In this document: positions 11,902 through 39,621 of the stretch, one piece after another
Layout: each line of letters begins with the position of its first letter
How positions within the stretch are numbered: the stretch's first letter is position 1
Assembly: GCA_902770245.1 (NCBI GenBank)
Contig: CACXSS010000013.1
Span: 1 to 41,338, forward strand
Direction of reading: 5' to 3'
Length of the DNA: 41,338 nucleotides
Source of the DNA: an uncultured Planctomycetota bacterium
GTDB taxonomy: Bacteria > Planctomycetota > Planctomycetia > Pirellulales > Thermoguttaceae
Notes under the pieces: model-generated
Database searches by the model: none
Told to the model about the DNA's origin: nothing
What the model saw: the letters and a program-made list of their open reading frames with translations, nothing else
Position numbers and translations under genes: made by a program

Positions 11902-11912
11902 TGGAGGCGTAA

Positions 11913-11995
11913 CAATTAGCAATTAGCAATGAGCAATTAGCAATTGACAAAAAACGCTTCAATAATTGCTAATTGATAATTGCAAATTGCTAATT
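11913..11995. repeat. Heptamer fold-back array A
   Basis: CAATTAG, CAATTAG, CAATGAG, CAATTAG, CAATTGA (11913-11947), then a 16-base core containing AACGCTTC, then AATTGCT, AATTGAT, AATTGCA, AATTGCT (11964-11991). The right arm is the inverted complement of the left. The period is exactly 7 throughout. It fills the gap between the murB-like stop and the next gene together with the following stretch. Confidence 0.85.
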
Positions 11996-12000
11996 CTCCC

Positions 12001-12036
12001 TACCCCCTATTCCCCACTCCCTATTTCCTATAATTC
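12001..12036 (+). repeat. Heptamer stretch abutting the TolQ/ExbB-like start codon
   Basis: TACCCCC, TATTCCC, CACTCCC, TATTTCC, TATAATT (12001-12035), then C and the ATG at 12037. Exact 7-base phasing; a different heptamer family from array A, which ends six bases upstream. No other ribosome-binding site is visible, so the array forms the immediate 5' leader. Confidence 0.65.
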
Positions 12037-26916: not shown

Positions 26917-27084
26917 ACAATTATCAATTAGCAATTAGCAATTTTCAATAGACGCAAAGCGCCACAATAATTAGTAATTATCAATTATCAATCAGCAATT
27001 AACAATTGGCGCAAGCGTCTGAGTAAACTCTTATGAGAAACGCGAAGCGTAATTGCTAATTGCTAATTACTAATTGCTAATTAG
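26917..27084. repeat. Heptamer fold-back array B (between lemA and the M48 gene)
   Basis: Left arm ACAATTA, TCAATTA, GCAATTA, GCAATTT, TCAATAG (26917-26951); core ACGCAAAGCGCC (26952-26963); second arm in the same orientation with units ending AATTA (about 26967-27007); second core GGCGCAAGCGTC; a third core CGCGAAGCG; then the inverted arm TAATTGC, TAATTGC, TAATTAC, TAATTGC, TAATTAG (27050-27084). The last unit supplies the lemA stop codon (27081-27083), and the first unit begins 5 bases before the M48 ATG. The whole intergenic space is array. Confidence 0.85.
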
Positions 27085-27786: not shown

Positions 27787-27905
27787 AGTTAGGAGTCAGG
27801 AATGAGGAGTGCATAGTACTTAGTGCATAGTACTTAGTACGCAAGCGCTCCTCTCCTATGCACTATGCACTAATACCACTCTCAACTCGCTACTCGCAAC
27901 TTCCC
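27787..27905. repeat. Heptamer fold-back array C (upstream of lemA)
   Basis: AGTTAGG, AGTCAGG, AATGAGG, AGTGCAT, AGTACTT, AGTGCAT, AGTACTT (27787-27835), then a core with ACGCAAGCGCTC (27839-27850), then TATGCAC, TATGCAC, TAATACC, ACTCTCA, ACTCGCT, ACTCGCA, ACTTCCC (27857-27905). Seven-base phase is kept within each arm, and the arms are inverted complements near the core. It starts ~50 bases upstream of the lemA ATG, so it lies in or near the operon promoter. Confidence 0.85.
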
Positions 27906-28099: not shown

Positions 28100-29908
<1,809 letters not shown>

Positions 29909-30098: not shown

Positions 30099-30317
30099 AT
30101 GAGAACGCTGTATTTTGCCGGTTTACTGCTTACGATAACGCTTTTAAGCGTTATGAATGTCGGTTGCCAGTCCACCGTTGGCGGCATGACGTTGCCCAGC
30201 CCCTATTACCTGGAAGACGATACGCAGTATTTCCCCGCCGGTTCGGAACAGCCGTTGTATAATGAACGCGCTGCGCTGCAGAAAGCCTCTGAAGAAGAAA
30301 CCATTAAGAGACTCTGA
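30099..30317 (+). CDS. Small planctomycete-type lipoprotein
   Basis: 72 residues. A lipoprotein signal with lipobox ending MNVGC (Cys at residue 23), followed by QSTVGGMTLPSPYYLEDDTQ and a Glu/Ala-rich C-terminal helix. The TLPSPYYLEDDxQYFPAG segment is one I associate with a conserved group of small planctomycete lipoproteins of unknown function. Anchored to a membrane by the lipidated Cys. Probably expressed with the next gene, whose start lies 17 bases beyond the stop. Confidence 0.8.
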   Translation: MRTLYFAGLLLTITLLSVMNVGCQSTVGGMTLPSPYYLEDDTQYFPAGSEQPLYNERAALQKASEEETIKRL

Positions 30318-30319
30318 TT

Positions 30320-30387
30320 AGTGAGGAGTGAAGAGTGAAGAGCGAGGAGTTAGGAAGCCTTGTCGCTTACCGCTTAACGCTTAAAAC
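30320..30387 (+). repeat. Heptamer array E, forming the 5' end of the next gene
   Basis: AGTGAGG, AGTGAAG, AGTGAAG, AGCGAGG, AGTTAGG (30320-30354), a 12-base core (AAGCCTTGTCGC), then TTACCGC, TTAACGC, TTAAAAC (30367-30387). The GTG start at 30335 lies inside the third unit, and the array encodes the first ~17 residues of the protein. Confidence 0.75.
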
Positions 30388-30895
30388 TTTCAGCGGCGTT
30401 GCGTTGCTGGTATGTATTTACATTCTTCTGAGCTTTAGCTTTGCATCGACGAGCTGGGGAGAAGAAAATATAAATTCAGAATCCATAGAACAAAATTCGG
30501 AATTGGAAAATGTTGCCAATTCCGAATCGTCTGTTTCGAATGAAGACGCCCCAAACTCTGAACAAGTCAGGAACGGATTTAAGGAATGGAACAATAACGC
30601 CGTTCCAATGATGAGCCGCCTGTTTGTCTGGATCGGCTTTATTATGTCAATCGGTCTGACGGCAAAAATTCTAACTGCTTTTAATGACCGTCAAATAGGA
30701 TTGATGACAGTTATTTTTGTCGGCTGCGTTGGCGCGCTGACAAGCATGATTCTTTTACCGATGGTCTACATTGCCGGAGATTTCAAGCCTGTTTCACCGC
30801 TTGGATTTGGCGTAGCCGTCCTGGCAGCGTTTTTAATTCTGCTCTTTTACAGCAAAATACTGCATCTGTTCGGGCAGGACGAGCAAGGGAAATAA
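30335..30895 (+). CDS. Hypothetical membrane protein
   Basis: 186 residues from GTG at 30335; a TGA at 30329 rules out any longer form, and no later start keeps the first hydrophobic segment whole. After an array-encoded basic N terminus (KSEELGSLVAYRLTLKTFS) comes a signal-like helix (GVALLVCIYILLSFSFAS), an acidic Ser/Asn/Glu-rich linker (~45-80), then three helices: MSRLFVWIGFIMSIGLTAKI, MTVIFVGCVGALTSMILLPMV and FGVAVLAAFLILLFYSKIL. No family recognised. Likely in one transcript with the lipoprotein gene. Confidence 0.65.
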   Translation: MKSEELGSLVAYRLTLKTFSGVALLVCIYILLSFSFASTSWGEENINSESIEQNSELENVANSESSVSNEDAPNSEQVRNGFKEWNNNAVPMMSRLFVWIGFIMSIGLTAKILTAFNDRQIGLMTVIFVGCVGALTSMILLPMVYIAGDFKPVSPLGFGVAVLAAFLILLFYSKILHLFGQDEQGK

Positions 30896-35116: not shown

Positions 35117-35238
35117 AAGCTGCTAGCTATTAGCTACTAGTTATTAGCTTTGTTACCAGTAGTTCTCGGCTTTAATTGTTAAAGCGTGAAGCTAAAATAA
35201 CCGAGCTAGAAGCTAAAAGCTAGGAGCTAGGAGCTTAA
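35117..35238. repeat. Heptamer fold-back array G (after rpoD)
   Basis: TAGCTAT, TAGCTAC, TAGTTAT, TAGCTTT (35124-35151), a ~50-base core that includes AAAGCGTGAAGC, then AGCTAGA, AGCTAAA, AGCTAGG, AGCTAGG, AGCTTAA (35204-35238). The right arm is the inverted complement of the left. It starts 2 bases beyond the rpoD stop and could fold into a stable 3' hairpin. Confidence 0.85.
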
Positions 35239-37739: not shown

Positions 37740-37795
37740 CAGTAGGCAATATCAACTTACTACTGCCTATTGCCTACTGCCTATTGCCTACAGTC
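37740..37795. repeat. Heptamer array H (between the GH99-like and DUF6807 genes)
   Basis: CAGTAGG, CAATATC, AACTTAC, TACTGCC, TATTGCC, TACTGCC, TATTGCC, TACAGTC (37740-37795). The first unit plus CAAT is the inverted partner of ATTGCCTACT at 37769-37778. The last bases overlap the stop codon (37795-37797) of the DUF6807 gene. Same heptamer family (TACTGCC) as array D, 8.3 kb away. Confidence 0.8.
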
Positions 37796-39525
37796 TACTC
37801 TTTGTCTTTAATAACAATCTTATATGCGGCGGTAATCGACTTGCCGGGTTCGAGCAGAATCGGGTTTTCGTGAACGCGCATCGTCGCGCCCATATAGGCG
37901 AACGCCTTCCAGCCGTCGCCCATGGAATAACCGGTCATCGGGCGCGTGTTGCCGGGCAGGTCTTCGATTGTTACAGAAATCGGGGCGCCGTCTACGATTC
38001 CAGTCGCGTTAATCCACTGACAATCCTTGAGTCGTTCGTCTCCGCGAACAATTGCGCCATCGTGGGCGCCGGTACTGTTGGAAAATCGAACGGTCGTATT
38101 CATGTCCTTGGCGAAACGCATTCCCAAACCGAAATAGTAGCGTCCGTTAATTGTAATCGCTTTGTCGCCGGCGGGCGTGAGAACGGATTTCCAGTTCAGA
38201 ACGTTGGCGCCGTCAACGGACGCAACGGAAATCTCGCGAACCTCTTTGGCGATAACCGTTCCGTCCGCAGCAATCCAATTGAGTTCCGCATTGATGGCGG
38301 ACGAGTCCTCGGACAGTTCGCACTTCGTTAAAACTTCCTGACTGCAATTGTCGCCGTATTCGCCCCAGAACTCGAAGCCGTCAACGCTTAAAGAGTACAT
38401 CAAACCGTGATGATGAACGTGGTCAGCGGGCGAATCTGAAAGAACCTGAACGCCGAGTGGCGTGAACAACTGTTCAATATATGGCTTGTACTTCCCGGCT
38501 GTCTGAAACTGGGCGACGACTTTGCCGTTGGCTTTGAGCGGGAGTCTCGTTTTAAGCTGACCGTCAACCAGTTCAGCGGATTTCCCGTCGGCGGAAATGC
38601 GATACAGACCGTCAATCGTGCGAGCGTAAATCGTATACGTTCCGTCTGCGTTTGGAGCTGTTACAACGGAGACGAATCCGGTCATGTCCTCAGCCAGCGT
38701 CGTCCACTCTTTGGCGGTTCTGTCATACTGGCACAGCGCACCGTCTTTATCGACGGCAATCAAAACGTCTTTGTCCGTCCCTTTGCCGACTGTCATACAT
38801 TTAACGACTTTGTCCAGCGGATCAACCTTTTTGCCGATAAGAATCCAGGTATTGTCTTCCCCGGCGGCGATAATTTCATCTTCCTTGGTTGTCGGAACGA
38901 AGTTGCCGCAAATGGTTGCTTTTACGTTCTTCCCCATGAACTTTTGAGAGTAAACATTCCAAACCGGGTTGTACGTGTAAACGTCTCCGTTGGTAATGGC
39001 AACAAACTGACACGGCATGTTCGCCTTGATTTTCCCGGCGGAAACCTGATCAAAATCGCCGGAAATAGGCGGCCAGCCTTTTTTGTCGTAATCTTTGTTC
39101 CACAAATAGGAGGAGCCGGAATACGTTGAGGCGATAAGCGTACTTCTGGCATCGTCTTTAGTAATCACGCCGGCTGAAATCGCTTTGACGTTGCTTCCGT
39201 TCGGTCCGGACAGAACAACCGCTTTGCCGGTTTCAATCGTCTTTTCCGCATCGAGAATGTAGAGAGCTTTTATGTCCTGACTGATAATCGCCAGGCAGTC
39301 TTTGCCGGAGCCGTCGTTGTCGAAAGCGACAATCTGATGACCTTTTTCGTAGAACCCCATCAGACGAACGCTTTTCTGCCCGTCGAAAAGGCGAATTTCA
39401 CCCGTGGAGTCAAGCCACGCAACGCCAAACGTTCCGCCTGCCATGTTGTGACAGGCATTCTCTGCCGCAAAAGCGGGAAGAGCAAATACAAGCGCTAAAA
39501 GCAGCGCAGCAATTGTATGTTTCAT
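37795..39525 (-). CDS. Secreted DUF6807 (PmoA-family) protein with N-terminal propeller-like region
   Basis: 576 residues from the ATG at 39525, where a good signal peptide begins (MKHTIAALLLALVFALPAFA); the in-frame extension to 39603 is translated heptamer array I and is rejected. Residues ~25-330 contain repeated short strands (GVAWLDSTGEIRLFDG, KALYILDAEKTIE, VAITNGDVYTYNP, GEDNTWILIGKK, AVDKDGALCQYD), like a beta propeller. The C-terminal ~240 residues match the DUF6807 pattern: LFTPLGVQVLSDSPADHVHHHGL (His cluster), WGEYGDN, and a closing ILLEPGKSITAAYKIVI. Often next to Gfo/Idh/MocA oxidoreductases, as here. Probably periplasmic sugar-related; reaction unknown. Confidence 0.78.
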   Translation of the reverse strand: MKHTIAALLLALVFALPAFAAENACHNMAGGTFGVAWLDSTGEIRLFDGQKSVRLMGFYEKGHQIVAFDNDGSGKDCLAIISQDIKALYILDAEKTIETGKAVVLSGPNGSNVKAISAGVITKDDARSTLIASTYSGSSYLWNKDYDKKGWPPISGDFDQVSAGKIKANMPCQFVAITNGDVYTYNPVWNVYSQKFMGKNVKATICGNFVPTTKEDEIIAAGEDNTWILIGKKVDPLDKVVKCMTVGKGTDKDVLIAVDKDGALCQYDRTAKEWTTLAEDMTGFVSVVTAPNADGTYTIYARTIDGLYRISADGKSAELVDGQLKTRLPLKANGKVVAQFQTAGKYKPYIEQLFTPLGVQVLSDSPADHVHHHGLMYSLSVDGFEFWGEYGDNCSQEVLTKCELSEDSSAINAELNWIAADGTVIAKEVREISVASVDGANVLNWKSVLTPAGDKAITINGRYYFGLGMRFAKDMNTTVRFSNSTGAHDGAIVRGDERLKDCQWINATGIVDGAPISVTIEDLPGNTRPMTGYSMGDGWKAFAYMGATMRVHENPILLEPGKSITAAYKIVIKDKE

Positions 39526-39547: not shown

Positions 39548-39621
39548 AGTGCATAGTACCTAGTGCATAGTGCATAGTGGAAGGCGCTTTGCGTACTACG
39601 CACTATGCACTACGCACTATA
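39548..39621. repeat. Heptamer fold-back array I (between the DUF6807 and Gfo/Idh/MocA genes)
   Basis: AGTGCAT, AGTACCT, AGTGCAT, AGTGCAT, AGTGGAA (39548-39582), core GGCGCTTTGCGT (39583-39594), then inverted units ending ACTACGC, ACTATGC, ACTACGC, ACTATAA (39595-39622). The core is the exact complement of the ACGCAAAGCGCC core of array B, 12.6 kb away. Same AGTGCAT family as array C. It ends 2 bases before the Gfo/Idh/MocA stop codon. Confidence 0.88.

Follow-up and report, generated by a model that had tools for sequence, protein, structure and literature searches.

The element at positions 30320–30384, one copy of a repeat abundant throughout a genus of Thermoguttaceae, belongs to a family of palindromes with heptamer arms, and its type D arm appears to supply the Shine-Dalgarno motif, the start codon and the leader of the membrane-protein gene beginning at 30335. 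Judging from sequence and its comparison between species, we give this reading a probability of about 0.65. The window, i.e., the whole stretch of 41,338 nucleotides analysed here, is contig 13 of a 4.06 Mb metagenome-assembled genome (MAG) from the rumen, referred to below as the own genome. Three congeners (G001, G002 and G003), all Thermoguttaceae MAGs from ruminant gut, served for comparison.

All features around the proposed start lie on the forward strand. As the original prediction had it, an array of period 7 is present: the left arm (30320–30355) consists of five AGTGAGG-type (type D) heptamers, and a second array, the right arm (30364–30384), has three CGCTTAA-like heptamers and is in part the complement of the left one. 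The 8 bases between the arms (30356–30363) lack the canonical core mini-hairpin. The proposed GTG (30335–30337) lies in the third heptamer, as predicted from the sequence, and a Shine-Dalgarno-like AGGAG (30324–30328), itself within the array, is located 6 bases upstream of it. This GTG opens a reading frame of 186 aa (30335–30895) encoding a membrane protein with no Pfam match. An in-frame TGA was found two codons upstream, where it had been expected, and is the nearest upstream in-frame stop. A small upstream gene of 72 aa (30099–30317) ends in a TGA (30315–30317) located 2 bp 5′ of the array, and its end is conserved in four species. The claim that the GTG is the only possible start proved too strong because an in-frame TTG, the next start candidate, occurs at 30404–30406, though it has no Shine-Dalgarno motif. 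Residues 2–18 counted from the GTG (KSEELGSLVAYRLTLKT) derive from the element, which agrees with the proposal that the first ~17 residues come from the array; comparison between species makes their translation probable. A start at the GTG predicts the peptide KSEELGSLVAYR, and a start at or after 30404 excludes it.

The proposed mechanism follows from the heptamer itself. Since every AGTGAGG repeat sets AGGAG six bases 5′ of a GTG, a type D arm placed between two genes would act as a ready-made ribosome-binding site with a start codon. AGTGAGG alone produces this AGGAG-N6-GTG spacing among the 20 heptamer units tested on both strands, and in the genus studied the region upstream of ATG genes shows its maximum of SD-like motifs at −15 to −11. 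In a pure AGTGAGG array the frame stops after five codons; at 30335 two unit variants abolish this stop, so that the frame would continue without an in-frame TGA via the right arm into the membrane-protein gene and the element would encode the first ~18 residues. By our own reading, these residues may form a charged leader preceding a hydrophobic stretch resembling a signal peptide. The predicted RNA fold of the element (−22.3 kcal/mol, z −2.89) places the GTG inside a helix, and such burial counts against the array serving as a start. An element-made start seems to be a rare case, as the survey produced at most one other candidate (G002:C32:253943); since the home-made gene finder misses small genes and did not call the 30335 gene itself, other such starts may be missed.

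Homologues of the 30335 gene in the three congeners are 74–79% identical and align from residue 19 or 22 onward; in more distant homologues the match is confined to the C-terminal part. The end of the upstream gene and the body of the 30335 gene are conserved in 4/4 species, and between them lies a variable stretch which differs in every species, retains heptamer remnants and gives four different N-termini. The best GTG candidates, with starts chosen by us, yield MKSEELGSLVAYRLTLKTFSGVALL... in the own genome, MNSVALRLVRLLMCV... in G002 and MSGATQPRLSQLITRNFALL... in G003, and the G001 counterpart has several candidate starts. Comparison of the congeners thus supports the array as the most likely source of the start and N-terminus of this gene. 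A point against an array-made start is that the GTG candidates of G002 and G003 lie in degenerate sequence merely resembling type D.

The alignments beginning at residue 19 or 22 would also fit translation from the downstream TTG at 30404, which is in frame in both the own genome and G001, with the element serving as a mere untranslated leader. This is what PMC3733652 argues for many REPs at the 5′ ends of ORFs, warning that N-terminal REPs may be untranslated. We consider such a start rather unlikely: no Shine-Dalgarno motif precedes the TTG, the leader it would give carries no positive charge ahead of the hydrophobic stretch, an ATG, GTG or TTG is missing there in G003, and G002 offers only a GTG four codons 5′ of the anchor or an ATG at the anchor. 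Another explanation, to which we give about one chance in four, is that the GTG start and a signal-peptide leader were there first, and the element expanded or inserted around them. A GGAGTGA-like context at the candidate GTGs in 4/4 species points in this direction, as does the finding that elsewhere starts mostly predate arrays (16/17, see below). It is opposed by the N-termini 3′ of the GTGs, which cannot be aligned between species, and by GTG-to-body distances ranging from 12 to 35 codons, so that a common ancestral start is not demonstrable. The array-supplied start is our preferred reading.

The arrays of the family to which the element belongs are no product of chance. Period-7 segments number 102 in 441,338 bases of the own genome and 78 in 390,000 bases of G002, and Markov shuffles of the two sequences contain 0; no other period from 4 to 13 yields more than 21 segments, the harmonic period 14 gives 74 and 47, and period 15 gives 6 and 11, respectively. 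Merged, these segments form 75 elements in the own genome and 59 in G002. The full sample of the own genome comprises the window, the first 20 kb of contigs 1–12 and 14–21, and contigs C30, C39, C43 and C132 (two whole and two partial, picked for orthology), 545,259 of 4,059,633 bases in total. Arm length has its mode at 31 bp, or about four heptamers, with 152 arms of 30–33 bp. The left arm follows the pattern NNARTNN and the right arm its complement; 37 of the 43 two-arm elements are inverted, and 28/43 carry the same heptamer type in both arms, against 6.2 expected from shuffling. A CGCAARCG-like mini-hairpin core occupies 59 of the 112 spacers (4.2 expected). There are about nine heptamer types in the own genome, as assigned by eye and then by k-mers. 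An RNA hairpin as the defining function of the whole family was set aside, as arm types differ in 15/43 two-arm elements; the copy at 30320 does fold.

Heptamer-arm elements are common in the genus studied and nearly absent from related genera: exact type E arrays occur in 5 and type F arrays in 9 of 101 family genomes, mainly in this genus and in one genome of another. The latter, G068, contains 55 exact matches to the type F array, which suggests transfer or separate expansion. Elements of the AGCTA type (type I), found 3′ of the sigma-70 gene stop (35118–35235, unstranded) and at the G002 counterparts, have a different GGTTAC/GTAACC-like centre and do not follow the ART pattern; they are perhaps a separate family. 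At L054:18355–18615 there are four consecutive arrays with similar spacers, perhaps the low-complexity linker region of a protein.

Several other elements, listed without strand, are found in the window. A compound A-type element (26918–27082) occupies the space between the M48 peptidase start and the lemA stop. Its first TAA is indeed the lemA stop at 27081, which the original prediction had credited to the array; the same TAA is present in G001, where there is no array. The C-type array at 37760–37798 overlaps the DUF6807 stop (37795) as described, with a TAG at the same codon in G002. An A-type element with an F-type right arm (11910–12031) lies between the murB-like and TolQ/ExbB-like genes, where G001, G002 and G003 have other heptamers. 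Two exact junctions proposed here were not confirmed: the sequence preceding the murB-like ATG (11026) is below the array threshold, and the array found before the TolQ/ExbB-like ATG (12037) stops at 12031, 5 bases short of it rather than 1. The element at 27787–27901 looks nested, with type D outside, type B inside and type E outside; an outer arm pair enclosing another pair is seen also at the 11910 site in the congeners. A B-type element (39548–39619) has the same site and type in G002.

Clustering at gene boundaries was evaluated by uniform placement within each intergenic gap (20,000 simulations, overlaps included for stops). In 50/89 cases an element edge is found no more than 5 bp from a stop, versus 20.0 expected, a value reached in 0 of 20,000 simulations, and random intergenic placement is rejected for stop codons. 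Edges within 5 bp of a start show no significant excess over all gaps (14/95 versus 11.5 expected, p 0.21). Restricting the count to gaps with 60 bp or more to spare gives 17/42 versus 1.5 expected for stops and, within 10 bp, 12/64 versus 3.4 expected for starts (p 0.0001). The view of gene boundaries as preferred targets thus stands for stops, and for starts only in these roomier gaps. TAG terminates 38 of the 69 genes with stops near elements and 145 of 526 called genes overall. Among the listed flanks other than those of the AGCTA type, arms after stops almost all run in the ART direction and arms before starts in the complementary one. Most ART-direction arms contain stops in all three frames, and most complementary-direction arms contain none; an element against a stop codon would therefore probably be nearly harmless, and one that covers the final codons would just provide a new stop, which may be why elements gather at gene ends.

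Orthologues lacking an array often bear another repeat after the stop, similar to TGGAAGGCGGTAAYGGAGTGA (e.g., the G002 counterparts of own L053:6369 and C30:19439), which may constitute a further family of gene-end repeats. At own C43:16411 (L118) and in the G002 and G003 orthologues, the GC-rich repeat GGCGGCGAGGCGCCGCTCCCAG comes after the stop in each of the three species.

Comparison with array-less orthologues at 65% identity or more indicates that boundaries are usually older than arrays. The set comprised 110 stop and 48 start cases, and those beyond the counts given here have no array-less orthologue in the sample; the comparisons are not independent, one site being counted from several species. 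Of 16 genes with an array upstream of the start, 15 have the start codon unchanged, and the single start overlapped by an array is unchanged too (1/1). Stops with an array downstream are unchanged in 23/25 cases, with one mixed and one changed. Stops overlapped by an array are unchanged in 12/24, changed in 10 and mixed in 2, with shifts of −9 to +5 codons. In one clean change a gene ends in GRDF in the element-free own genome and in GRLE plus an element-supplied TAG in three congeners. The suggestion that the element reshapes gene boundaries accordingly fails for most starts (16/17 unchanged) and applies to about half of the array-overlapped stops.

Arrays also reside inside genes: 22 of 214 elements lie within called genes, the samples of four species being pooled. 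In 26 of 32 in-gene orthologue comparisons the length differs, in 25/26 by a multiple of three, although these counts come from about eight distinct sites and are not independent; for intergenic length differences the fraction divisible by three is 21/95. At the sequence level, in-gene arrays are thus demonstrably kept in frame. An example is the AMP-binding ORF (28100–29908), which carries an in-frame element on the forward strand at 29398–29476. Its inserted peptide is nearly the same in the own genome and G001, and longer and mostly different in G002 and G003, with all four frames open and nearly identical flanks. Mapping by flanks gave 205 comparisons; with 60 array-less targets and 1 unassigned set apart, 144 remained, 50 of which share no heptamer type (17/26 in genes, 33/118 elsewhere). 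Orthologous sites thus demonstrate that one heptamer type is often replaced by another, and this change may be exchange, repeated insertion or in-place conversion, which the data do not distinguish. We tentatively raise the possibility of fixed docking sites with exchangeable heptamer cassettes, in which flanks stay unmoved, even in the same protein loop, with type D cassettes serving as portable modules for starting translation that can capture a gene start, as at 30335.

How the elements arose is considered here under two explanations, both of which we regard as doubtful. They may be REP-type palindromes mobilised by Y1 (RAYT) transposases: the own genome has nine Y1_Tnp matches, a 7-bp duplication occurs at one empty site (own C30:30659), and REPs likewise lie at stop codons, supply TAG stops and occur within ORFs, according to PMC3733652. 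By inspection, TAG-rich arms and GCGTC cores are seen among the elements. In a check for target-site duplication of the kind left by a MITE, the duplication is the only 7-bp case in 23 apparent empty-site comparisons and may be a heptamer-like target. Against this origin, 3 arrays across 8 Y1 loci (21 kb) equal the genome-wide density, and Y1_Tnp occurs in 69/101 family genomes but arrays in few; linkage to RAYT is not supported, as array density at Y1 loci is background and the two are not co-distributed among the 101 genomes. Alternatively, heptamer-like seeds at gene ends could have grown into arrays on the spot through replication slippage, and one or two heptamers do occur at some array-less sites (the lemA site in G001 and the G001 C12:4094 site). 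Slippage, equally improbable in our estimate, is at odds with an arm length peaked at 31 bp rather than open-ended, with both arms being of the same type in 28/43 elements, and with the recurrence of the same few types at unlinked sites.

A literature search found no paper mentioning Thermoguttaceae together with tandem repeats; PMC6749651 is a survey of satellites. In the portions of the literature covered, we found no frame-conservation evidence for heptamer arrays, no exchange of heptamer types at many sites between congeners, and no heptamer with its own SD and GTG. Frame conservation and orthologue comparison show that this genus routinely translates a selfish-looking heptamer element as part of its proteins; the mechanism offered is that one heptamer type can supply both a ribosome-binding site and a start codon. 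Gene annotation should allow for stops adjacent to arrays that differ by a few codons from species to species. Same-site heptamer exchange is now testable in four sequenced species.

The closest parallels are the heptameric repeats of Xanthomonas and Nostoc (GGGAATC, GGGGAYT; Rehm et al., PMC4692102). These form four units in convergent pairs, sense strand near stops and antisense near starts, with some overlapping stops, and 7–11% of those in Xanthomonas are intragenic. The elements studied here share the 7-base unit, the preference for four units (mode 31 bp), the inverted pairs (37/43) and the strand bias at gene ends. They differ from the G-rich, quadruplex-capable GGGANTN unit, which only type F fits (30320 being type D), and in having about nine types, a core mini-hairpin, in-frame use and same-site type replacement. 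The TAACTGA repeats of Beggiatoaceae, cyanobacteria and Bacteroidetes (MacGregor, PMC4679880) lie just 5′ of starts and overlap stops and, read in one direction, they too have a stop in every frame. Unlike our two-arm elements, they are direct repeats of one unit, with one indirect repeat in the main genome, and a two-arm element is not described for them in the part of the paper covered.

In the Nostoc trnL intron, as described in PMC3488679 and PMC4476775, complementary heptamer runs form the stem of the P6b hairpin and one repeat class is replaced by another. Both the complementary heptamer stem and the repeated class replacement at one site resemble our observations, but P6b is one intron site rather than hundreds at gene ends and in proteins. 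PMC3733652 and the review PMC10969869 describe REPs that furnish TAG stops and lie within ORFs, as well as Rickettsia palindromic elements (RPE) lying in frame within proteins; in the passages covered, neither kind is described as a run of heptamers. REPs are palindromes of 20–40 bp bearing GTAG or CGTC tags, and those with GTAG are often found beside RAYT genes. Our elements are like both in being short palindromes at gene ends that supply stops and lie in frame in proteins, and the likeness to RPE, by description, extends to in-frame residence within conserved genes, with 25/26 length differences divisible by three.
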